20,072 bases of DNA, taken from Thermoproteota archaeon. GTDB lineage: Archaea > Korarchaeota > Korarchaeia > B14-G2. Location: NCBI GenBank assembly GCA_003661385.1, contig QMWA01000013.1:1-20072 (forward strand). Reading direction: 5' to 3'. This document shows, one piece after another, positions 804 to 17,690 of the stretch. Position numbers and translations under genes: made by a program. The notes below the pieces were generated by a model. It saw only the letters and a program-made list of their open reading frames with translations. It searched no databases and had not been told where the DNA came from. Position 1 is the stretch's first letter. The number at the start of each line of letters is the position of its first letter.

Positions 804-2352
804 GTGCTTGAGGGAGAAGCGTGCTTCCCTAGCTTCTTCAAGTTTGGTGCGGCTTCATCTGGGTTCCAGTTCGAGATGGGAGACCCTGAGGGTAGGGCTA
901 TAGACTCAGGCAGCGACTGGTGGGCTTGGGCTCACGACCCCCCTCAACGCTGCTGCTGGGGTTGTGAGCGGAGACCTTCCTGAGGACGGCCCATGCTACT
1001 GGCTGCTATACAGGAGGGATCATGAGCTGCTATGTGAGATGGGCCTTGAAGCCTACAGGATGGGAGTTGAGTGGAGCAGAATCTTCCCAAAACCCACCTT
1101 TAAGGTGCATGTCGACGTGAAGCTGGATGGTGGTGTCAGGGCTGTCCACATCGACAAGGGAGCTCTAGAGGAGCTCGACAAGCTGGCCGACAAGGCTGCT
1201 GTAGAGCACTACAGAGAAGCCATCCTAGACCTGAAGGCGCGAGGAGTGCATGTAACTGTCTGCTTAAACCACTTCACGATGCCAGCTTGGCTCCACAGCC
1301 CGCTGAGAGCCAGGAGCACCGCGCTGAGGGAGGGTGGAGGCTGGGTCAGCAGGCAGGCTGTCATAGAGTTCACCAAGTACGCTGCCTACATGGCTTACAA
1401 GCTAGGAGACCTTGTTGACGCGTGGGCTACGCTGAACGAGCCTAGGGCTGTAGCCTATGAGGGCTACCTGAGGCCTAGGTCAGGCTTCCCTCCAGGCGTG
1501 CTGAGCTTGAGCGCATACACCCAGGCAATGAGGCACCTGGTAGAGGCTCATGCTAGGGCATATGACGCCTTAAAGGAGTGGAGTCCAAGAGAGGTTCCAG
1601 CTGGGGTAATATACGACATCTACCTAGCTGAGCCTCTCAGGGAAGAGGACGCTGAGGCAGCGGAGAACGCCAGATACGTGCTCAACTGGTGGTATCTTGA
1701 TGCCATAGCTAAGGGCCTGCTCGCTCCAGAGTACACCAGTGAAGCTCGCAGCAGCCCCGTGCACCGCAGCGACCTCAAGGGCCGAGTAGACTGGATTGGA
1801 GTCAACTACTACACCAGGCTCATCGTCAAGAGAGGCAGGCTGTGGTCTAAGTCCATGGACCTCCTCAACTGGGTGCCTGTACGCGGATACGGCTTTGAGT
1901 GCAGGCCGAACTCCACGTCTCTAGCAGGCCTCCCGACAAGCGATGCTGGCCAGGAAATGTACCCGCAGGGCATCAGAGAGGCCCTCAAGGAGACCTACAG
2001 GAGGTATAAGCTCCCCCTAGTCGTGTCTGAGAACGGCGTAGCAGACCACGCAGACAAGCTGAGGCCACACTACATCCTATCACACCTAGCAGAGGTATAC
2101 AAGGCCATTGAAGACGGAGTTGACGTGCGGGGGTACTACTACTGGGCTCTAGTAGACAACTACGAGTGGGCTCACGGCTTCAGGATGAGATACGGCCTCT
2201 GCCACGTAGACTTCAGGACCAAGCATAGGCTGCTGAGGCCTAGCGCCATCATGTACGCCAGGATAGCAGCAGAGAAGAGCATACCAGGAGGCATCATCCC
2301 AGCCTACTGGAGCACTGTAGTTAATAACCCCTTGGCCACCGGGGGGCTATGA
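804..2352 (+). CDS. lacS: GH1 beta-glycosidase (LacS type), interrupted by a frameshift
   Basis: This is a family 1 glycoside hydrolase that hydrolyses beta-D-galactosides and beta-D-glucosides in the cytoplasm by a retaining mechanism. The N-terminal part from GTG 804 reads FPSFFKFGAASSGFQFEMG, which matches the first strand and aglycone site of Sulfolobus LacS. The frame is then lost at a run of six C (938-943), where deleting one C restores DPLNAAAGVVSGDLPEDGP and the rest of the protein. Repaired length is 515 residues against 489 for Sulfolobus LacS. The acid/base is E212 in TLNEP and the nucleophile E409 in SENG (repaired numbering); the C-terminal W-ADNYEW-like motif is present as WALVDNYEW. 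The unshifted long frame is 964-2352. It overlaps treT by 4 bases (ATGA), so the two are probably translationally coupled. The shift may be real, a sequencing error, or, less likely, recoded. Confidence 0.88.
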
Positions 2353-3575
2353 GCCCCAGCATCGAGGACTACAGGAGCATAATAGGAGAGGAGGAGGTTG
2401 AGGGGATTAAGGCTGCTGCAGAGGAGGTCAGCGGCCTCTCGCTAGTCCACGTGAACTCAACGAGGTTTGGAGGTGGGGTGGCTGAGATACTCCACAGCAT
2501 GGTTCCACTGATGAAGTCAGTTGGCCTGGAAGCCAGGTGGGAGGTGATGAAGGGGGACCTGAGCTTCTTCACAGTCACGAAGAAGCTTCACAACGCCCTC
2601 CAGGGCGCTGACATACACCTGTCAAGAGAGGAGCTTGAGCTGTACATGAGGTATAACAAGGCGAGTGCTGAGGAGCTCGAGCTGGACGCTGACTTCATAG
2701 TAGTCCACGACTACCAGCCTATGGCTATCCCAAAATACAGCAGGCCAACTAGCTCCACCTGGATCTGGAGGTGCCACATAGACCTCTCCACCCCACAGGC
2801 TGACGCCCTGAAGCTGGTATCCTCCCTGATCCCCCTCTACTCTGCAGCAGTGTTCTCCATGAAGGAGTTTGCTAGAGGCCTCAAGCTCCGCAAGCTAGCA
2901 GTCATCCCTCCATCAATAGACCCGCTCAGCGACAAGAACAAGCCTCTCCCTGAAAGCGAGGTCCTGAGGGTTCTGGAGAGGTATGACATAGACCCTGATA
3001 GGCCGATCATGACGCAGGTAGCTAGATTCGACCCGTGGAAAGACCCCCTGGGGGCTGTAGACGCATACAGGATCGTCAAGAGAGAGGTGCCTGGGGTGCA
3101 GCTCCTGATGGTAGCTTCCATGGCCTCAGATGACCCAGAGGGCTGGTACTGGTATGAGAAGGTAGCCCGCTATGTTGGAGAAGACTACGACGTGCACCTG
3201 CTGACGAACATGATCGGGGTTGGGAGCCTAGAGGTCAACGCCCTCCAGAGAGCATCCGATGTAGCAGTCCTCAAGTCCATAAGAGAGGGGTTCGGGCTGT
3301 CAGTAGCTGAAGCCCTCTGGAAGAAGGTCCCCGTCGTCGCCAGCAGCGCAGGAGGAATAAAGCTGCAGGTGATAGACGGCGTAACAGGCTTCATAGTGTC
3401 GACAGTCCAGGAGCTAGCTGAAAAAGTCCTGTACCTGCTCAAGCACCCTGAGGAAGCTAGGAGAATGGGGGCTAACGGAGCTGAGCACGTCAGGAGGAAC
3501 TTCCTGATAACAAGGCACCTAAAAGACTACCTGAAGCTCATCTCATCACTCAAGAGCTCTGCACCGCTCGCCTAA
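2349..3575 (+). CDS. treT: Trehalose synthase TreT (GT4 family)
   Basis: TreT is a trehalose glycosyltransferring synthase that joins glucose from NDP-glucose to free glucose to give trehalose, reversibly, in the cytoplasm. The N-terminus carries the family signature HVNSTRFGGGVAEILHSMVP followed by WEVMKGDLSFFTVTKKLHNA and WIWRCHIDLS, which I recognise from Pyrococcus and Thermoproteus TreT. The C-terminal Rossmann domain holds the GT-B retaining E-x7-E motif (E313, E321) in EGFGLSVAE and a following SSAGGI loop. Length is 408 residues, close to the family norm of about 410. It starts at ATG 2349 within the stop of the GH1 gene. In Thermococcus treT sits in the trehalose/maltose transporter cluster under TrmB, and the same partners occur here. 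The last ~86 bases are duplicated at 4707-4795. Confidence 0.9.
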   Translation: MSPSIEDYRSIIGEEEVEGIKAAAEEVSGLSLVHVNSTRFGGGVAEILHSMVPLMKSVGLEARWEVMKGDLSFFTVTKKLHNALQGADIHLSREELELYMRYNKASAEELELDADFIVVHDYQPMAIPKYSRPTSSTWIWRCHIDLSTPQADALKLVSSLIPLYSAAVFSMKEFARGLKLRKLAVIPPSIDPLSDKNKPLPESEVLRVLERYDIDPDRPIMTQVARFDPWKDPLGAVDAYRIVKREVPGVQLLMVASMASDDPEGWYWYEKVARYVGEDYDVHLLTNMIGVGSLEVNALQRASDVAVLKSIREGFGLSVAEALWKKVPVVASSAGGIKLQVIDGVTGFIVSTVQELAEKVLYLLKHPEEARRMGANGAEHVRRNFLITRHLKDYLKLISSLKSSAPLA

Positions 3576-3615
3576 GCCTACCATCTTCCTCCTCAAGTGC
3601 TACTCTGCAGACCCT
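3489..3615 (+). repeat. Direct repeat copy A: treT/galT junction (left of the toxin-antitoxin insert)
   Basis: This segment matches 4707-4835 at roughly 75-80% by eye, with a 22-base perfect block (3500-3521 and 4719-4740). On the plus strand it is the true end of treT. On the minus strand it still encodes a recognisable GalT tail, RVCRVALEEEDGRLRRAVQS followed by a stop at 3550-3552, compared with RICRVAPEEAAGRLRRAVQ in the intact gene. The ghost galT stop lies inside treT, so the two genes overlapped tail-to-tail by 26 bases here. Confidence 0.85.
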
Positions 3616-3726
3616 GGCTCCTAAGCACTGCTACGTGTAGGTGCTATCAGCTGCTCACATGTGCTTTAGCTTACACTGGAGCTTCCTGCCAGCTAGCAGA
3701 GTACTGAAACACGTAGCTAATGGATG

Positions 3727-3745
3727 GCCTGCTGCACCAGCAGGC
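3727..3745 (-). terminator. Perfect hairpin just past the toxin remnant
   Basis: GCCTGCTG, loop CAC, CAGCAGGC: an 8-bp GC-rich stem with a 3-base loop, 12 bases beyond the end of the PIN remnant on the minus strand. There is no strong T run after it, so a terminator role is only a guess; RNA stability or a recombination scar are alternatives. Confidence 0.3.
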
Positions 3746-3756
3746 TTCAGTAGAAT

Positions 3757-4259
3757 CTACATCTCCCTTAGGATCCTTGCTATGATGCTGTCGCTTACCC
3801 AGAAGCCATGCTCCCTAAGCTTCCTGATATCAGACACCAAGGTACGCTTGTCTATCAGCCCTTTGTCATAGAGCATCTTGAGGACACGTAGGGTCCCAGC
3901 TACGTTGAGGCCTAGCTCATAGGCTCTCCTTCATGCTAGTCTGTCATCCAAAACCACGAAGTCAGCTTCCTCCTCTAATGCTAGGGCTATAGCCTCAGCT
4001 TCCCCAACGATAGATCTTGGCATAGCTCTTCTACTACACTGCGGCTTCTCACCCGCTTGACAGACACCACTCCCTCCTCTATAGCCTCTCTTAAGCTCCT
4101 ATCACCAGGCAGCCCTTGCCCTCTGATACACACCTCCTCATATACAGCAGCTGGAACCACAACCTCGTTAAAGACATGCAGCATTTCTCTTAGGTAGCCC
4201 AGCTTGCTCAAAGCTATCACAGCTGAAGAGTCTAGTACTACCTTAATGCGCTCCTTCAA
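3757..4259 (-). pseudogene. Broken PIN-domain toxin (DUF3368/VapC-like)
   Basis: PIN-domain toxins are Mg-dependent RNases neutralised by their cognate antitoxin. The N-terminal part from TTG 4259 reads KVVLDSSAVIALSKLGYL, with the first catalytic Asp. After LSLG the frame is lost near 4001-4006 by one missing base; in the next frame the protein resumes EAEAIALALEEEADFVVLDD, the acidic core typical of DUF3368, then meets an in-frame TGA at 3931-3933, and continues YELGLNVAGTLRVLKMLYDK to a TAG at 3757-3759. So there are two independent lesions and the toxin is probably dead. The TTG start overlaps the antitoxin gene by 17 bases, the usual arrangement of a coupled pair. The one-base gap could be a sequencing error, but the TGA would remain. 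Confidence 0.85.
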
Positions 4260-4482
4260 GGCCTAGCTCCCTTAAAGCCTCCTGGTCACTATAGCAGTAA
4301 GCCGGCATCCCCCTCTTCTTAAGCTCCTCAAGGAAAGCCTGTAGAGGCAGCCCTGCCAGCTCAGCAGCCTTCCCCACGCTCACCAGCCCCTTTCTCAGAG
4401 CCTCAATAGCAACAGCTAACCTGACCTCCTGCTCCTCAAGCCCCTCAGGAACCTCAACCTGGACTACCCTCAGCTCAAGCAC
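4243..4482 (-). CDS. UPF0175 family antitoxin
   Basis: The 79-residue protein matches UPF0175, small antitoxins with a helix-turn-helix-like core found next to PIN/DUF3368 toxins. Diagnostic stretches are VAIEALRKGLVSVGKAAELA (residues about 28-47) and FLEELKKRGMPAYCYSDQEA. It would bind and block its PIN partner and may repress its own promoter. The start is GTG at 4482, supported by a TATA box 26 bases upstream (leaderless). The frame is intact although the toxin overlapping its 3' end is broken, so it may be an orphan kept to counter a related toxin elsewhere, or a recent loss. Confidence 0.85.
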   Translation of the reverse strand: MLELRVVQVEVPEGLEEQEVRLAVAIEALRKGLVSVGKAAELAGLPLQAFLEELKKRGMPAYCYSDQEALRELGLEGAH

Positions 4483-4502
4483 CCAAGGTAGAGGCTAAGA
4501 AG

Positions 4503-4513
4503 CCATTAAAATA
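4503..4513 (-). promoter_or_regulatory. TATA box of the antitoxin-toxin operon
   Basis: Minus strand TATTTTAATGG, centred about 26 bases before GTG 4482, predicting leaderless transcription. The ~190 bases between this box and the repeat at 4707 hold no gene I can support. Confidence 0.55.
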
Positions 4514-4706
4514 CTTTGTCCCAGGCAGCTCCCAGATGCATGCAAGAGCTCTCGACTGTAAAGGCTTGCCGCCATCACATGGGGTCTCCTGAGCTCTAGC
4601 AGCTCTAGGATCGCAGCTACAGAGCACACAGCATACTCGGCCAGCTTCCTGCCAGCATTCCACCAAATATGGGTTAAACAGCTGTCTCAGGGTTTTAGCT
4701 GAGTAG

Positions 4707-4835
4707 CGTCGGGAGGAGCTTCCTGATAACAAGGCACCTAGGAGGCCACCTGAAGCTCACATTGCCGGCTCAGAAGCTCTGCACTGCTCGCCTGAGCCTG
4801 CCAGCTGCCTCCTCAGGTGCTACTCTGCAGATCCT
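4707..4835 (+). repeat. Direct repeat copy B: treT/galT junction (right of the toxin-antitoxin insert)
   Basis: Second copy of the 3489-3615 segment. On the minus strand it is the genuine 3' end of the GalT-like gene (stop 4770-4772). On the plus strand it is a decayed treT tail reading GRSFLITRHLGGHLKL, compared with RRNFLITRHLKDYLKL in the intact gene, then drifting out of frame after a one-base indel. Together with copy A it brackets the toxin-antitoxin segment. Confidence 0.85.
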
Positions 4836-5834
4836 GGCGTGCTCTAGTAGCTCAAAGCCTCCTATGCTCTCATATGGGAGTATCTCGCCGAAGAAGTGGA
4901 ATGATCCAGCGTGCCCCATGGGCCTCTGGTAGAACACTATGTTCCCCTCCACATGCCCTATGGCTGCAGCAAGCGCCTTCGCGGCCTTCACCAGGAGCTC
5001 TGCCAGCTCCCTTAGCTCGCTTCCGCTGAGCTTTGTCAAGTCCTCTACATGCCTCTTCACTGTGAACCTGAGGTGGAGGTTCCTTCTGGGAGCTCTGCTA
5101 GCCCACAGCATGGTGTGCTTCCCGCTGTACACGAGCCTCTCCTCATGCTCCTCCTCGCATAGAGGGCAGCTGCCTGAGAAGGCCTGCAGAACAGACTTAA
5201 GTGCCCTCCCGTATCCATCTTGGGTCAGGTCCACGTACACCTGCGTGTGGAGCCTCCTGACGCTCCCGCCAGCTTTCTCACCTAGGTTGAAGAAGACGTA
5301 GGCTGGTGCGCTAGAGAACCCCTTTGCCTTAGCTGAGCTCCAGCAGGCTTCCAGCCCCCTAGCTGTGACCTCTAGGAGCTTGAGGAGCTCGCTTGGGCTG
5401 CAGGCCTCTACTCTCTCAGCGTACCTCCTGGTGAATGCTACCAGGCATATGCCTAGTGCTAGCCTGCTGCCCTTAAGCCTCTCCTCTATCTTGGGGAGCA
5501 GCTCCTCGTCAACTACCCTAGCCATCGGAGGGTACCTGTTCACTATGGCGAAAGCCTCGCCTTTGAGCTCCCTGGCCTTTGGCTCCACTGAGAAGGGGCT
5601 GTCAGCAAGCCCGCTGCTGTCAGCTACAACTATAGCGTAGTCAGCTCCCTTCACAACCTCCTCAAGCGGGTCAGCTCCCCTAGGCCTCTCACCTCGCACT
5701 GAGCTGATGTAGGCGAAGTGCTCAAGCAGCATGTCCCACTTCTTCACTGGGAGAGGCTTGTCCCCCCTGTAGTTGAACCTGGATATCACGCCCCAGTGCA
5801 TGTATGGTATCTTCTCGAGCGGCAGGGTGCTCAT
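4770..5834 (-). CDS. GalT-like nucleotidylyltransferase (HIT superfamily)
   Basis: The protein resembles galactose-1-phosphate uridylyltransferase, which moves UMP between glucose-1-P and galactose-1-P through a histidine intermediate. The first HIT half carries FFNLGEKAGGSVRRLHTQVY: the nucleophile His (H196) and following Gln (Q198) are kept, but the HPH of classical GalT is R194-L195-H196. The second half starts with SCPLCEEEHEERLVYSG (CxxC, likely metal site) and has NIVFYQRPMG and FHFFGEILP, like the C-terminal GalT half. With the ATG at 5834 it has 354 residues and overlaps the upstream gene by 4 bases (ATGA); ATG 5846 and 5882 are possible longer starts. It is the last gene of the mal operon and could supply nucleotide-sugar to TreT or the neighbouring transferase. 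The substrate is not certain. Confidence 0.75.
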   Translation of the reverse strand: MSTLPLEKIPYMHWGVISRFNYRGDKPLPVKKWDMLLEHFAYISSVRGERPRGADPLEEVVKGADYAIVVADSSGLADSPFSVEPKARELKGEAFAIVNRYPPMARVVDEELLPKIEERLKGSRLALGICLVAFTRRYAERVEACSPSELLKLLEVTARGLEACWSSAKAKGFSSAPAYVFFNLGEKAGGSVRRLHTQVYVDLTQDGYGRALKSVLQAFSGSCPLCEEEHEERLVYSGKHTMLWASRAPRRNLHLRFTVKRHVEDLTKLSGSELRELAELLVKAAKALAAAIGHVEGNIVFYQRPMGHAGSFHFFGEILPYESIGGFELLEHARICRVAPEEAAGRLRRAVQSF

Positions 5835-6991
5835 GCCTCCCCCCATACCTGCTTGAGGTACTCCTTCTCGGATTCGAAGCACTCAGCTTCCCTCTGGACC
5901 TCAAGCTCAGCTTCCCTGTCGCTTAGCTCAGCTGTGTCAGCTATGAACGCAGCTACCTTGCCAAGCCAGCACGCATAGAGGCTTCTCAAGACGCCTTCGC
6001 TCCTCCTCCTGGCGTAGGCGGCCAGGTGCCTGTACACTACTCTAGCCCACAGGGTGCTTGGGAAGCTGTCTGCCTCGCCTCCCGCGAGCCTCCTGGCAGC
6101 CTCCTGGACTTCAGTGTAGAGCTCTTTGAGCACGCTGCGGGAGGCGTAGCCTGCTAGAGCCCTCTTGAACCTCGCTATGCCCTGCTTGAGGTCTACTGGA
6201 GCTGGCTGTGTGCACCTCAGCATGGCTCCCCCCTCTAGGAGCTCCACTTCAGTGCTCCCAGATATGCTCCACCACTTGTCTACGTGCCTCGAGGCCACGG
6301 TGAAAAGAGACCCTGAGACGTCTGTGAACATGCCTTCAAGGTGCTTCAGCGGGTCCTTCATGTCATGTAGCTTGGAGCCCAGGTCTGCTTGCGCCACCCT
6401 GGCTCCAGTAGCCAGGGCTGTGCTGGTTATGAAGATGTCTATGCCATACCTGTAGGTGTAATCAGCCCAAGGCTCCTCTAGGAGCTTCTCCGCTAGCCTA
6501 GCTGAGACGCCGAAGTCTCCTCCTATAGGCTGCCTCACTCTCCTGCCGTAGAGTGCTCTCGTAAGCGGGTAGGCGAGGTGCTTTGTTATCATCCCATCAT
6601 ACTTGCTCCTATGGTAGAGTGGGGTTATGAGGTCGTATCTGCCTCTGGCAGCCTGCCCCAGCAGCTTAATCCACTCAGGGGTTATGCTTCTGAGGTCGCT
6701 GTCAACTAGGACTATGCCCTCAGCGCCATACTCGAGTGCCTTGGCCATGATGTGCCTTATGGCGCTGCCTTTGCCAGGTGGCCCAGGGTACCTCTCGACC
6801 ACCTTGTCTACACTGAGCTTCAAGGCCTCTACTACCTCAGGTGTGCCGTCTTGGGAGCCTCCATCAGAGACCAGGATGAGCCCCCTTTCACCTGGGAAGT
6901 GCCTCTCTAAGCCTAGTGCAGCCTGCTTCACCACGTAGCACACTGTCGCAGCAGTGTTATAGGATGGCACACCGACTACTATGTGGTACAT
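5831..6991 (-). CDS. GT-A glycosyltransferase, GT2/GT78/GT81-like
   Basis: The N-terminal domain is a GT-A fold: HIVVGVPSYNTAATV, then SDGGSQDGT, PGKGSAI (residues 71-77) and the metal/NDP-sugar binding DSD at 97-99. The order GKG, DSD, QPIGGDFGVS (154-163), YGID (182-185) and a later KLHD (207-210) resembles mannosylglycerate synthase and glucosyl-3-phosphoglycerate synthase, which make charged compatible solutes. About 170 residues of helical, Arg/Ala/Glu-rich C-terminus follow. No membrane segment is seen, so it is probably cytoplasmic. It starts 10 bases after the malK stop with only a weak ribosome site, and ends in an ATGA overlap with the GalT-like gene, so all three should be co-expressed. 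The donor and acceptor are not determined; a glycerate- or phosphoglycerate-linked sugar is a guess from motif order. Confidence 0.7.
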   Translation of the reverse strand: MYHIVVGVPSYNTAATVCYVVKQAALGLERHFPGERGLILVSDGGSQDGTPEVVEALKLSVDKVVERYPGPPGKGSAIRHIMAKALEYGAEGIVLVDSDLRSITPEWIKLLGQAARGRYDLITPLYHRSKYDGMITKHLAYPLTRALYGRRVRQPIGGDFGVSARLAEKLLEEPWADYTYRYGIDIFITSTALATGARVAQADLGSKLHDMKDPLKHLEGMFTDVSGSLFTVASRHVDKWWSISGSTEVELLEGGAMLRCTQPAPVDLKQGIARFKRALAGYASRSVLKELYTEVQEAARRLAGGEADSFPSTLWARVVYRHLAAYARRRSEGVLRSLYACWLGKVAAFIADTAELSDREAELEVQREAECFESEKEYLKQVWGEA

Positions 6992-8096: not shown

Positions 8097-8905
8097 AGTG
8101 AGATGCCCCACATGGTTACAAGGTACCTGCGAGCTATAAACACGAAGGTTATAGCTGGCATCACCATTATGAAAGCTGCAGCGAACTTATAGGGGTCTGG
8201 GGCAGTCAGCACTGTGACCAGGATGTCAGCTGGCAGAGTCCTCCTCATCAACGTGAGTATGGAGGCCACAAACACCTCGTTCCACGAGATCACGAAGGTG
8301 AACATGGCTGCTGCAGCTAGCCCAGGCAAGGCCATTGGGAGAGTTATCTTGAAGAAGGCCTCAGCCCTGGTCAAGCCGAAGACCATAGCTGCCTCCTCGT
8401 ACTCTACTGGTATGCTCACGAATATGCTGTATGTTATGAGCACAACGAAGGGTAGCGCTAGGGAGGCGTGCGCCAAGGCTACGCCGAGGATCGTGTCGCT
8501 CAGCCCGAGCCTTATGTAGAGCTCAGCCAGCGGGACCCCCAGAACCATCAAGGGGAACATCCTCAGCGAGAGTATCAGCAGCTTGAAGCCGTCTCTCCCA
8601 GGGAACACGTACCTAGCGAGGGAGTAGCTTGCTGGGAGCCCTAGGGTGAAGCTGACTGCTATCGTCAGGAGAGCTACAGCTATGCTGTTCAGCGTGGTCC
8701 TCCACTCCCTCAGCTCAAACAAGAGCACCCTGATGTTCTCGAGCGTGAACTCTGTTGGGATAACCTTCCCTACGTCATAGTAGTCTTCTGGGACAGCGAA
8801 GGCTGAGATGAATATCAGGGCTATCGGAGTGAGGACCCAAGCTGACACCATGACTGCAGCAGCATACAGTGCTATCCTGGTGAGAGCCTGCTGCCACCTG
8901 TACAC
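8090..8905 (-). CDS. malG: Sugar ABC transporter permease (MalG type)
   Basis: The 271-residue membrane subunit has six hydrophobic segments (about residues 11-36, 72-96, 108-130, 140-162, 195-217, 241-258). The conserved EAA loop that docks to MalK reads EYEEAAMVFGLTRAEAFFKI, with EAA at 171-173, Gly177 and LP at 189-190. It starts with GTG at 8905, preceded 3 bases away by a 9-base match to the archaeal anti-Shine-Dalgarno sequence. It follows malF with a 6-base gap. Together with MalF it forms the channel of a CUT1-class importer. Confidence 0.9.
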   Translation of the reverse strand: MYRWQQALTRIALYAAAVMVSAWVLTPIALIFISAFAVPEDYYDVGKVIPTEFTLENIRVLLFELREWRTTLNSIAVALLTIAVSFTLGLPASYSLARYVFPGRDGFKLLILSLRMFPLMVLGVPLAELYIRLGLSDTILGVALAHASLALPFVVLITYSIFVSIPVEYEEAAMVFGLTRAEAFFKITLPMALPGLAAAAMFTFVISWNEVFVASILTLMRRTLPADILVTVLTAPDPYKFAAAFIMVMPAITFVFIARRYLVTMWGISLR

Positions 8906-8908
8906 TTT

Positions 8909-8917
8909 GGATCACCT
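8909..8917 (-). promoter_or_regulatory. Strong ribosome binding site for malG
   Basis: AGGTGATCC on the minus strand, complementary to the expected ...GGATCACCTCC 3' end of archaeal 16S rRNA, overlapping the malF stop and 3 bases before GTG 8905. It supports the non-ATG start. Confidence 0.6.
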
Positions 8918-9787
8918 GCCTTCCTCCAGGTACCTGGGCTTGAACAGCTTCAGGTACATCCACCCTAGGGCTATGGAGATCACAGCTACGAGGAGGGCGT
9001 AGCAGGCTGCTATATGCGGGTTCCTCACGTCGCTCTGCCAGTAGTATGCCTCCCCTGCGAGCACAGGGATGTCCCGGCCTGCTAGGATCCAGACCACAGC
9101 GAAGACCTGCATGGCGAAGAGCGTCCTGATTATTATAGCTGACTGGAAGCTGGGCTTGAGCATAGGCAGGATCACGTACCTGATCTTCTGCCAGGTGCTT
9201 GCGCCGAAGACGTCAGCTGCCTCGATGTAGTCTCTGCCTATCATCTGGAGGCCAGCGAAGAGTATCACGAAGACTATGGCTGTAGCCCTCCAGACCTCTG
9301 TCACGACTATGGCTACAGCCTCCATGCTCCTGTAGGCGTAGCCGAAGAAGTGGATTGGCTGGCTTATCAGCCCTAGCTTGAGCAGCACCTTATTCAGGTA
9401 GCCGCTTCCAGTCAGCATGTTATACCATATCAAAGCTGCTGCGACATCGCTTATCGTGAGGGGGATCAGGAAGACGTAGAGGCAGAGGTTAGCTCCCTTG
9501 AAGCCCCTGTAGAGGAGGAGGGAGACCCCTAGCGCGAGGGCAGCCTGCAGGGGGATTATCACCCCAGCTAGCAGGAAGGTGTACTTCAAGGCCTCCCAGA
9601 AGTACATGTCTGAGGTGAGGCTCCTGAAGTTCGAGAGGGTCAAGCTGCCTGACTCAGATGTGAAGGCAAGCTTGACCGCGTAGACTATAGGGTAGCCGAC
9701 GAAGAACAGGAGGTACATGAGGGTGGGTAGGAGAAGCAGGTACGGGATTAGCTTGGAAAAATTAGAGGAGGGGGGCTTCACGCCCAT
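8912..9787 (-). CDS. malF: Sugar ABC transporter permease (MalF type)
   Basis: The 291-residue permease has an N-terminal hydrophobic segment (residues 13-40), further segments at about 67-94, 102-124, 157-181, 217-237 and 258-280, and the EAA loop DYIEAADVFGASTWQKIRYV, with EAA 189-191, Gly195 and LP 207-208. It lacks the large extra periplasmic loop of enterobacterial MalF, as is usual for archaeal and Gram-positive CUT1 permeases. It starts at ATG 9787, 8 bases after the malE stop, with a GGGGT-like ribosome site. It pairs with MalG. Confidence 0.9.
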   Translation of the reverse strand: MGVKPPSSNFSKLIPYLLLLPTLMYLLFFVGYPIVYAVKLAFTSESGSLTLSNFRSLTSDMYFWEALKYTFLLAGVIIPLQAALALGVSLLLYRGFKGANLCLYVFLIPLTISDVAAALIWYNMLTGSGYLNKVLLKLGLISQPIHFFGYAYRSMEAVAIVVTEVWRATAIVFVILFAGLQMIGRDYIEAADVFGASTWQKIRYVILPMLKPSFQSAIIIRTLFAMQVFAVVWILAGRDIPVLAGEAYYWQSDVRNPHIAACYALLVAVISIALGWMYLKLFKPRYLEEGR

Positions 9788-14546: not shown

Positions 14547-15003
14547 CTAAAGGCACTGTGGTACTCCTGCTACCAGTACTGTGGTTTTGTGCTCTCTAAC
14601 TATCTGCTGGCTGTCTGTTATGTGCCGCCATAGGCCTCTCCTGAAGCTTATCACTGTTATTCCCAGCTCATCTGTTAGATAGTCACTTAGTAGAACCTCA
14701 TTTATGTCTGGGTTGACTACGGCGTTGCATTTTTATCTCTCTCATCTCCTTCACATCAGCTAGCTTAACTTTCACAGCTGCCCTAACTTTAGGTAGAGTT
14801 GTCTCACCAGCTGCTGTCTCATAGTCTTCCAAATCGAAGTCCCATGTAGGCCACACTCCTAGGGTCTTCGCTAGCGTAGCTGGTAGAGCTACATCTGGCT
14901 CATCGCTCTCAAACCCTGAGCTCACTAGAGCTGAGGTCTCAACCTGTACTCCCTCCATTGATTCGAGCTTAAGCTTCACCCTGACTCCCAGGCTTATCAC
15001 CAC
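14547..15003 (-). pseudogene. Retropepsin-like (clan AA aspartic protease-like) protein, copy 1, frameshifted
   Basis: The first 93 or so residues read VRVKLKLESMEGVQVETSAL, then VSSGFES at the position of the DTG/DSG active site, LPATLAKTLGVWP (the strand after the flap in such folds) and a VKVKL tail. At a run of five A (about 14729-14733) the frame is lost; with one A removed it continues CNAVVNPDINEVLLSDYLTD and FRRGLWRHITDS to a TAG at 14547-14549. The repaired form aligns along its length with the intact paralogue at 16862-17287. The catalytic Asp is Ser (S28), so proteolysis is unlikely even if repaired. The start GTG 15003 lies inside the preceding small ORF. A homopolymer sequencing error could explain the shift. 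Confidence 0.7.
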
Positions 15004-15146: not shown

Positions 15147-15362
15147 TTGAGCTATGCTGATACTGCTATAACTACTAGCTTCAAGGGTGCTTCCTAGCAG
15201 CCCTACTGTCAGGTGCTCCTCTGCTGCTAGTAGCTGCTGGCTTAGCTTCCATAAGCTCTGCTGCCTGCTAGTAGTGGTGTATGATCCCGTTTGCTGCCTG
15301 CTTCACTGCTAAGGACCTTAGAGCAGTGTTTGCTGGCTGAGGCTTCTGCTTTCATTAGGCTG

Positions 15363-15773
15363 CTAGCATGTTGTGTGTATGATTGCTGCTACCCTCTTCC
15401 CCTGAGACTTGAGCCTATTGAACTCCTCTATGGCCTTTGAGGTCTCTAGGATCTTGACTTCTACTGGGAGCTTTTTCACCTGCTCATCTACCTGAACCAT
15501 CTGGTTGTATCCTATGCCTACTATGATAACGTCTGGCTTCTCTTTAAGTAGGGCCTCCACCTCGCTTAGAGGTACATAGTGTGACTTCCTCCTGAGTGAG
15601 AGCCTTCCATCAGCGTGTACTGTGATGTCGAAGTAGGGGACTGGTATGCCACTGTAGACTGTGAAGCCGAATGCATGTAGCCCGAACTTCCCTATGGGAT
15701 TTAAGGCAAGCCATAAGCCTAAAGCTAAGGCTAAGACTAGAATTATGAGCCTCCTCCTCAAGCGCCCCTCCAT
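15363..15773 (-). CDS. Mth938-like domain protein with N-terminal membrane segment
   Basis: The 136-residue protein starts with a basic, hydrophobic segment (MEGRLRRRLIILVLALALGL, residues 1-22) that is probably a membrane anchor. The rest is an Mth938-like (DUF498) domain: FGFTVYSGIPVPYFDITVHA, KPDVIIVGIGYNQMVQVDE with the glycine loop, and the conserved end RVAAIIHTTC. Related domains occur in mitochondrial NDUFAF3 and in small archaeal/bacterial proteins of unknown reaction. ATG 15773 is chosen; AT-rich AAATCTTAAG at 15789-15798 may be its TATA box. It lies upstream of a small ORF plus retropepsin-like gene, and a truncated second copy of the same three genes in the same order lies at 16862-17690. 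Confidence 0.7.
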   Translation of the reverse strand: MEGRLRRRLIILVLALALGLWLALNPIGKFGLHAFGFTVYSGIPVPYFDITVHADGRLSLRRKSHYVPLSEVEALLKEKPDVIIVGIGYNQMVQVDEQVKKLPVEVKILETSKAIEEFNRLKSQGKRVAAIIHTTC

Positions 15774-15842: not shown

Positions 15843-16643
15843 CTACGTTGACAGAAATCCTCCATCTACTGGTATCACTGCTCTGTTCGCGTATGCTGAT
15901 AGGTCGCTTGCCAGGAATAATGCGACTCTAGCTACCTCACCTGGGTTTCCCGTTCTCTTCGCTGGGAGCCTCTTCATGAACTCCCTAGCCTTCAGGCTGC
16001 CTTCGCCCCAAACTCCCTTGCAGCCTTCTCCACTCCAGGTGTCAGTATCCCACCTGGTACTATCGCATTCACCCTGAAGTTCCTCCCGTACTCCCTTGCC
16101 AGCGACCTGGCCAGCGCTATCACGCCAGCTTTGCTCATGGAGTAGTGTGCAAGCTTCTCCTCGAACGGGGGGTTGCCTCTATGGAGCCTACGTTGATTAT
16201 CACACCTCCCTTGCTTCCTCTCCCCTTTCCCCTTTATCATGTGCTGGCACATCTAGAAGACTGACAGCATGTTGATGTTAAGCACTTCAAGAGGAAGCTC
16301 TCGTCTACCTCAGGGAAGCCCTTAAATGGGTATACTCCAGTGTTTTGACGAGTGTGTCAGGCTCCCTCCCCTTAAGCTTACTCCAAAGCTCATCTACCTC
16401 ACTTCTCTCAGATAAGTCGACTCTATAGGTCTCTACTCTAGCACCTAAGCTCTCAGCCTCACATCTAGTGGCCTCTAGCTTCTCCTCGTCTATATCGACT
16501 AGGATGAAGTTTGAACCTGCTTCAGCAAACCTCAGTGCTATAGCTCTCCCCATACCTGACGCGGAGCCCGTTATCAGAGAGCTCCTGCCCTTAAGTGATA
16601 TCAGCTCAGCTAGAGGAGGGGCACCTACCTTCCCCATAGACAC
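15843..16643 (-). pseudogene. Short-chain dehydrogenase/reductase (SDR), heavily broken
   Basis: Classical SDRs reduce or oxidise keto/hydroxy groups with NAD(P)H. The pieces in order are: Rossmann start SLITGSASGMGRAIALRF, then ILVDIDEEKLEATR and VDLSERSEVDELWSKLKGRE; a damaged NNAG region with a frame change near 16340-16360; FKGFPEVDESFLL; INMLSVF followed by an in-frame [15 protein letters not shown] in another frame; then the catalytic region [20 protein letters not shown] (Y-x3-K intact), [17 protein letters not shown], and after another frame change FMKRLPAKRTGNPGEVARVA and IPVDGGFLST to the stop at 15843-15845. I count about five frame changes and one nonsense codon, so this is a true pseudogene even if some shifts were sequencing errors. 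The start is GTG 16643 or ATG 16637. Confidence 0.88.
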
Positions 16644-16861: not shown

Positions 16862-17287
16862 TCATGTGCGCTTTGGCTTCTCGCTTTGCCTGAGCTTTTC
16901 CTTAGGCTCCCATGTAAACCTCCATAAGCCTCTAGCTGCTGCCTCTATAGCTATCTGTAGAGCTTCGATTAGCGTGTCGCTTATAAGTGGCTCATCAGCT
17001 ATAAGTGAGATCACAAGGTCTACTACAATCTCATCTGGTATGTAGTCTTCTGTAACTACTGTCACACTCGCTGCCCTCGGTATATACCACACTCTCAAGG
17101 GGCCTCCTGCTGTGTCGTATGTTGCCTCCTCTGCCTCTGGTGGAGGCGGCCACAGCCCTAGCTCTTTAGCTATGGCTTTTGGTATAAGCAGCTGTGGCGT
17201 AGGAGCCTCGTACCCACTGTTAGCCACAGCCACAGCTTCACATACCTTCTCTCCTCTTCTTATCCTTAGCCTTACCCTCACAACCAC
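16862..17287 (-). CDS. Retropepsin-like (clan AA aspartic protease-like) protein, copy 2
   Basis: The 141-residue intact protein reads MVVRVRLRIRRGEKVCEAVA, then ANSGYEAPTPQLLIPKAIAK followed by LGLWPPPPEA, TYDTAGGPLRVWYIP, and ends with VDLVISLIADEPLISDTLIE and AARGLWRFTWEPKEK. The layout (short beta hairpin, D-[ST]-G position, hydrophobic strand with LIPKAIAKELGLWP, second hairpin) is that of small single-domain archaeal retropepsin-like proteins. The catalytic Asp position is Asn (N23 of NSG), so it is probably not an active protease; a binding or structural role is more likely. GTG 17287 is used; GTG 17281, with AAGGTGG just before it, is an alternative. The gene overlaps the upstream small ORF by 50 bases and is the intact paralogue of the broken copy at 14547-15003. 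Confidence 0.65.
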   Translation of the reverse strand: MVVRVRLRIRRGEKVCEAVAVANSGYEAPTPQLLIPKAIAKELGLWPPPPEAEEATYDTAGGPLRVWYIPRAASVTVVTEDYIPDEIVVDLVISLIADEPLISDTLIEALQIAIEAAARGLWRFTWEPKEKLRQSEKPKRT

Positions 17288-17400: not shown

Positions 17401-17513
17401 TTTCCCTTAACAGCATGCTGCCATCTGAAGCTGGCTGCAGGATAGGCTATGCTAGATGCTTCTATCTAGCTTTACCTCTGCCACATGGGGGCCTCAACCC
17501 TCCGTCTCTAGTG

Positions 17514-17690
17514 CTAGCATGTTGTGTGTATAATTGCTGCTATCCTTCTCCCCTGAGACTTCAGCCTGTTGAACTTCTCTATAGCCTTAGATGTCTCTAG
17601 GATCACGACCCTTACTCGAAGCTTCCTGACCTCATCTACCTGAACCATCTCATTATACCCTATGCCTATTATGATCACATCAGGTTCTCT
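17514..17690 (-). pseudogene. Truncated second copy of the Mth938-like gene (last 58 codons)
   Basis: The minus strand encodes REPDVIIIGIGYNEMVQVDE and, after a one-codon gap relative to copy 1, ILETSKAIEKFNRLKSQG and RRIAAIIHTTC with a TAG at 17514-17516. By eye it is about 80-85% identical in protein to the end of the gene at 15363-15773. The membrane segment and first half are missing: homology stops about 70 bases before the start of the divergent ATPase gene, so the insertion or rearrangement that brought the ATPase probably cut it. Confidence 0.85.

Follow-up and report, generated by a model that had tools for sequence, protein, structure and literature searches.

The toxin-antitoxin genes that lie between the 3' ends of treT and a galT-like gene in an archaeal genome are in all probability best explained by an insertion at a former overlap of these two gene ends, accompanied by a target duplication that is long and variable in length. 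The window, the whole 20,072-nucleotide stretch analysed here, is contig C13 of a 1.74-Mb draft genome in 206 contigs, whose organism stands alone in its family among the genomes compared. treT on the plus strand and the galT-like gene on the minus strand converge, and the insert between their ends is bounded by two copies, A and B, of a direct repeat (Table 1).

Gene content of the interrupted junction

Adjoining the intact UPF0175 antitoxin gene of the insert is a gene for a PIN-domain toxin, the C-terminal part of which matches DUF3368 (PF11848, E=3.1e-10, 40.2 bits, Pfam). The toxin frame is broken by a frameshift near 4000 and by an in-frame TGA at 3931-3933. The first-pass annotation had proposed that a segment with a UPF0175/PIN pair split treT from galT; each gene indeed keeps a full 3' end, but the PIN member of the pair has decayed to a pseudogene.

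Table 1. Features of the treT/galT junction in the window
Feature	Position	Strand	Basis or remark
treT, trehalose synthase (TreT_GT1 + GT1 domains), intact	2349..3575	+	Pfam PF21269, E=1.5e-52
Repeat copy A	3479..3618		functional treT 3' end on +; galT 3' end on - is a ghost with its stop at 3550-3552
treT stop TAA	3573-3575	+	last 97 bp of treT inside repeat copy A
Insert, 1078 bp	3619..4696		bounded by the two repeat copies
PIN/DUF3368 toxin pseudogene	3757..4259	-	six-frame translation
UPF0175 (COG2886) antitoxin gene, intact, 79 aa	4243..4482	-	PF03683, E=1.7e-14, 53.7 bits
Repeat copy B	4697..4838		functional galT 3' end on -; treT tail on + is a decayed ghost
galT stop	4770-4772	-	3' 69 bp of galT inside copy B
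galT-like gene (HIT superfamily), intact	4770..5882	-	ORF; weak HIT/DcpS_C Pfam matches; GalT-like relatives

Neither the ORF list nor the six-frame translation of the insert (3619-4696) contained an integrase or transposase ORF, and no inverted repeats were found at the insert ends. An IS element or transposon does not fit, as terminal inverted repeats and a transposase ORF are missing and the duplication measures 140 bp, much longer than the short, fixed target duplication of a transposon; the earlier remark that the repeat is unlike a normal IS target duplication is thereby upheld. Integrase-mediated gene-restoring integration does not fit the same ORF content either, and no tRNA gene that might have been the target lies within the window.

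Elsewhere in the window, the 3' end of a DUF498 gene (15363-15773, minus strand) is repeated at 82.5% (15361-15543 and 17512-17690, about 2.15 kb apart), with two small, mutually similar genes of no assigned class after the copies, one after each (14698-15003 and 16862-17287), and a short-chain dehydrogenase pseudogene, split over two frames, lies at 15992-16643.

The direct repeat and its ghost gene ends

In local alignment, copies A and B form a direct repeat of 140/142 bp with 83% identity including gaps, and their alignment score of 91 compares with a maximum of 19.5 in 300 dinucleotide-model shuffles. The repeat noted at first as about 130 bp long (3489-3615 and 4707-4835) is thus real and far above shuffled sequence, with borders wider than given (Table 1). 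To the right of both copies similarity is at chance (67/300 shuffles), to the left it is weakly above chance (6/300 shuffles) and out of register, and alignment and shuffles gave no in-register extension of a longer decayed homology past the repeat borders. Other direct repeats in 20 other contigs of the genome were, where inspected, tRNA genes or tandem paralogues.

The galT stop (TCA on the plus strand) is kept in both copies, at 3550-3552 and 4770-4772, and so is the treT stop, as TAA at 3573-3575 and TGA at 4793-4795. As both stops are present in both copies, the ancestral treT and galT overlapped tail to tail by 26 bp, just as the first-pass annotation had stated. Conserved stops and homologue consensus together also bear out its statements that each copy encodes a treT tail on the plus and a GalT tail on the minus strand, and that the ghost GalT tail in copy A overlaps the treT stop; the ghost treT motif in copy B, which it had placed opposite the galT coding end, lies mostly beyond the galT stop instead.

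Alignment with TreT and GalT homologues distinguishes the functional from the spare half of each copy. TreT relatives display C-terminal forms such as KNFLITRHLEDYLKLL, a consensus which the tail in copy A matches (RRNFLITRHLKDYLKL), whereas the ghost tail in copy B (SFLITRHLGGHLKL) is without K-D-Y and carries one-base insertions at 4706 and 4767. Conversely, the P-E-x-A-A shared by GalT relatives is kept in copy B (PEEAAGRLRR), whereas the ghost tail in copy A has decayed (LEEEDGRLRR). All substitutions in the conserved treT part (3486-3541) fall at codon positions 1 or 2, as do most of those in the galT-only part. That the consensus is kept in the functional halves and lost in the ghosts is predicted by duplication followed by relaxed constraint on the spare halves. 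Judged from these alignments, the ghosts can be taken as genuine, copy A having kept its TreT tail with the GalT tail decayed and copy B having done the reverse.

An assembly or binning artefact that merged two strain variants, for which the 206-contig state of the draft would leave room, is scarcely credible, since a coding insert of 1.08 kb lies between copies that are 17% different, and the same architecture is seen in the single-contig genomes G095, G047, G066 and G192.

Filled and empty sites in other archaea

Searches for an empty treT/galT site were negative: with TreT covered in 61 genomes and 80 public loci, none of the loci fetched had both genes, and GalT, searched in 26 genomes of the class and 394 relatives, gave no match to the window's GalT in other class genomes, so that the event is read from the window's own anatomy. 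An uninterrupted single-copy target in a relative is seen for the junction of purF and pemK, in a genus other than that of the window. At the empty site in G394, purF (...EWAFRL*) and pemK (...KRTFGID*) lie on opposite strands (L315) with stops that share TTAA, and G407 (L312) and G432 (L316) have a single-copy site too. In G095 (L197), of the same genus as G394, a 786-bp UPF0175/PIN segment lies at this junction, the last ~39 bp of purF is duplicated in diverged form on the far side, purF and pemK are both intact, and from the second copy onward the right flank is exactly that of G394, running into an intact end of pemK. This is the architecture of the window with before and after both visible, and UPF0175/PIN pairs flanked by copies of host gene ends, as anticipated by the first-pass annotation, are thus found together with an empty convergent site in another genus.

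A tandem duplication of the junction, or of a gene end plus module, earlier or later, with the module captured or a second copy lost, would likewise leave repeated flanks, and tandem toxin-antitoxin arrays with repeated flanks do exist (L200, L231 and L233). We nevertheless hold it to be very unlikely, as both flanks in the window are continuous into the repeat (treT into A, galT into B), and at purF/pemK the repeated sequence is single in the empty and double in the filled site, with exactly the same right flank in both.

Gene ends are also duplicated where MazG-like genes terminate. In L268, 31 bp from the end of a MazG-like gene, stop included, recurs with 100% identity around UPF0175/PIN. 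In its sister G102 (L305), where RNase HII and the MazG-like gene converge with a HicBA pair between them, 54 bp of the MazG-like end is duplicated at 92.6%, and the stop of RNase HII directly adjoins the duplicated stop of the MazG-like gene. In L305 a 50-bp match to the PIN gene of G244 persists beside HicBA, so that one module apparently can take the place of another at a given gene end.

Sites of UPF0175 in other archaea were surveyed by an automated test, which counts a site as bracketed when the two copies of a direct repeat, 25 bp or longer with E<=1e-3 and a spacing of 400-1700, lie on either side of it. This was the case for 20 of the 77 UPF0175 sites, which are not fully independent and include among those bracketed several tandem toxin-antitoxin arrays, and for about 2% of random control points (7/300 in the window's own genome, 5/300 in treT loci) and 28/523 points more than 1.7 kb away in the same loci (Fisher p for the comparisons with these three sets of points, 4e-11 to 1e-7). 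A conservative set, from which the tandem arrays and one homologous duplicate were taken out, still has 13/70 bracketed sites (p=4e-6 against random points of the window's own genome, 3e-4 against the distant points in the same loci). VapB was rejected as a similarly bracketed family, with only 1/25 sites (Fisher p=0.013 against UPF0175). For HicA the number is 3/27, a difference from UPF0175 that is not significant (p=0.09), and the pattern may therefore not be specific to UPF0175.

The repeats at the 20 bracketed sites range from 29 to 256 bp and thus are not a fixed transposase footprint; their identity, from 73% to 100%, is consistent with copies that were identical at birth and then aged. 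Many of them are host gene ends. The L246 repeat comprises the start of an aspartate dehydrogenase-like gene and its upstream region, that of L270 the start of an NrpR-like gene, and those of L230 and L233 the stops of large genes.

The repeats that surround the UPF0175 modules of two separate genomes (L238 2775-4112, L257 2709-3771) are gene ends of one kind (VINGFWIN.TGNL...), possibly an insertion hot spot. In two different genomes (L159 1338-2289, L162 822-1757) the 3' end of a minus-strand gene (...HAPPLF*), cupin-like by eye, is duplicated around UPF0175/PIN. In L144, two tandem paralogous genes have an identical 69-bp 3' end in common (8847-8915 and 9323-9391), which suggests recent gene conversion.

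Mode of insertion and relation to known systems

On contig C97 (L114 3619-4271) a decayed galT-tail fragment is followed by a decayed UPF0175 gene and a PIN start, the block being located between a different sugar transporter and a PPDK-like gene. It differs from the window by ~27-30% and copies A and B from each other by 17%, values at odds with a simple single-step timeline; copies A and B may have undergone gene conversion, or decay may have been faster on C97. That C97 is a duplicate of the whole transporter cluster was rejected, the permeases being only 30-35% identical. On both sides of the block stands a direct repeat of low strength (27 bp at 74%, about 5/300 shuffles), and the block is possibly another old insertion of the same kind.

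The first-pass annotation proposed a circular element that carried the treT/galT junction and was integrated through a single crossover; one repeat copy would then be element-derived. This is compatible with the architecture, and the decayed galT tail with UPF0175 at an unrelated place on C97 indicates that gene-end DNA can travel with the module. The C97 block, however, reaches 99 bp beyond the repeat border into galT and so does not correspond to a circle delimited by the repeats. Neither an integrase nor a circular form nor a constant core was observed, and the repeat length, unlike an att core, differs by site, with some copies 100% or 95% identical, which suits local duplication at birth. 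Such an entry appears improbable, although at any single site it may have taken place.

In the favoured reading, insertion with target duplication, a UPF0175 plus PIN/DUF3368 module entered at the point where the convergent treT and galT overlapped, ~140 bp of target was duplicated with one copy on each side of the module, and both genes kept complete 3' ends, the spare halves of the copies decaying. The ancestral overlap, the duplication and the decay of ghosts and toxin are shown here, and so is the same architecture with empty sites in another archaeal genus. How the module was inserted is inferred: most likely a linear fragment was joined at a widely staggered break by fill-in or template switching, and no element-encoded recombinase would have been needed. 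Selection probably accounts for gene-sparing outcomes being the ones observed, because compact archaeal genomes have few neutral gaps.

Gene-restoring integration at the 3' ends of genes is a known outcome at tRNA genes and, for prophage e14 and phage 21, at icd. The likeness, which the first-pass annotation had drawn for tRNA genes, holds for the outcome, as the 3' end of the target gene is duplicated and the gene stays whole; it does not extend to a demonstrated mechanism, since here an integrase gene and a constant core are missing, the repeat length varies by site (~29 to 256 bp) and two genes are preserved.

A closer parallel is the insertion of restriction-modification genes with long target duplication in Helicobacter (Nobusato et al. 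2000, Gene 259:99), which, as recounted in PMC1643837 and PMC3874152, involves direct host copies of ~100 bp and variable length, a related single-copy empty site and no transposase. As far as these accounts go, both cases have a selfish gene pair between variable direct copies of host DNA, no transposase and a single-copy empty site in a related genome, the latter here for purF/pemK. They differ, on the same accounts, in that the cargo here is a UPF0175/PIN, elsewhere HicBA, toxin-antitoxin pair rather than restriction-modification genes, the hosts are archaea, and the target is often gene ends, notably tail-to-tail junctions, with both neighbours intact. The gene pair of the window is the UPF0175 (COG2886)-PIN toxin-antitoxin pairing that has been listed and regarded as mobile (Makarova et al. 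2009, PMC2701414); that work does not use the term 'target site', and where it speaks, in a few places, of insertion or duplication, the subject is a different one. The open-licence literature yielded no description of long target duplication for toxin-antitoxin modules, only reviews citing Nobusato et al., an absence that is weak evidence.

Whether archaeal solo toxin-antitoxin modules (UPF0175/PIN and at least one HicBA) spread as recombinase-less minimal insertion units, for which a host pathway duplicates tens to hundreds of target bases and which accumulate at gene ends, including tail-to-tail junctions, with the neighbours kept intact, is a proposition to which we give even chances. The way in which solo toxin-antitoxin modules, lacking a transposase, pass from one genome to another has long been debated as a question, and it becomes testable through a recurring footprint of long, variable target duplications, often at gene ends, through datable ghosts, the decayed tails being a rough internal clock for each insertion, and through empty sites in sister species. 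The mobility of toxin-antitoxin genes is thereby linked with that described for restriction-modification genes, and the pattern in the window and in other archaea suggests a gene-sparing way for selfish toxin-antitoxin genes to enter genomes.
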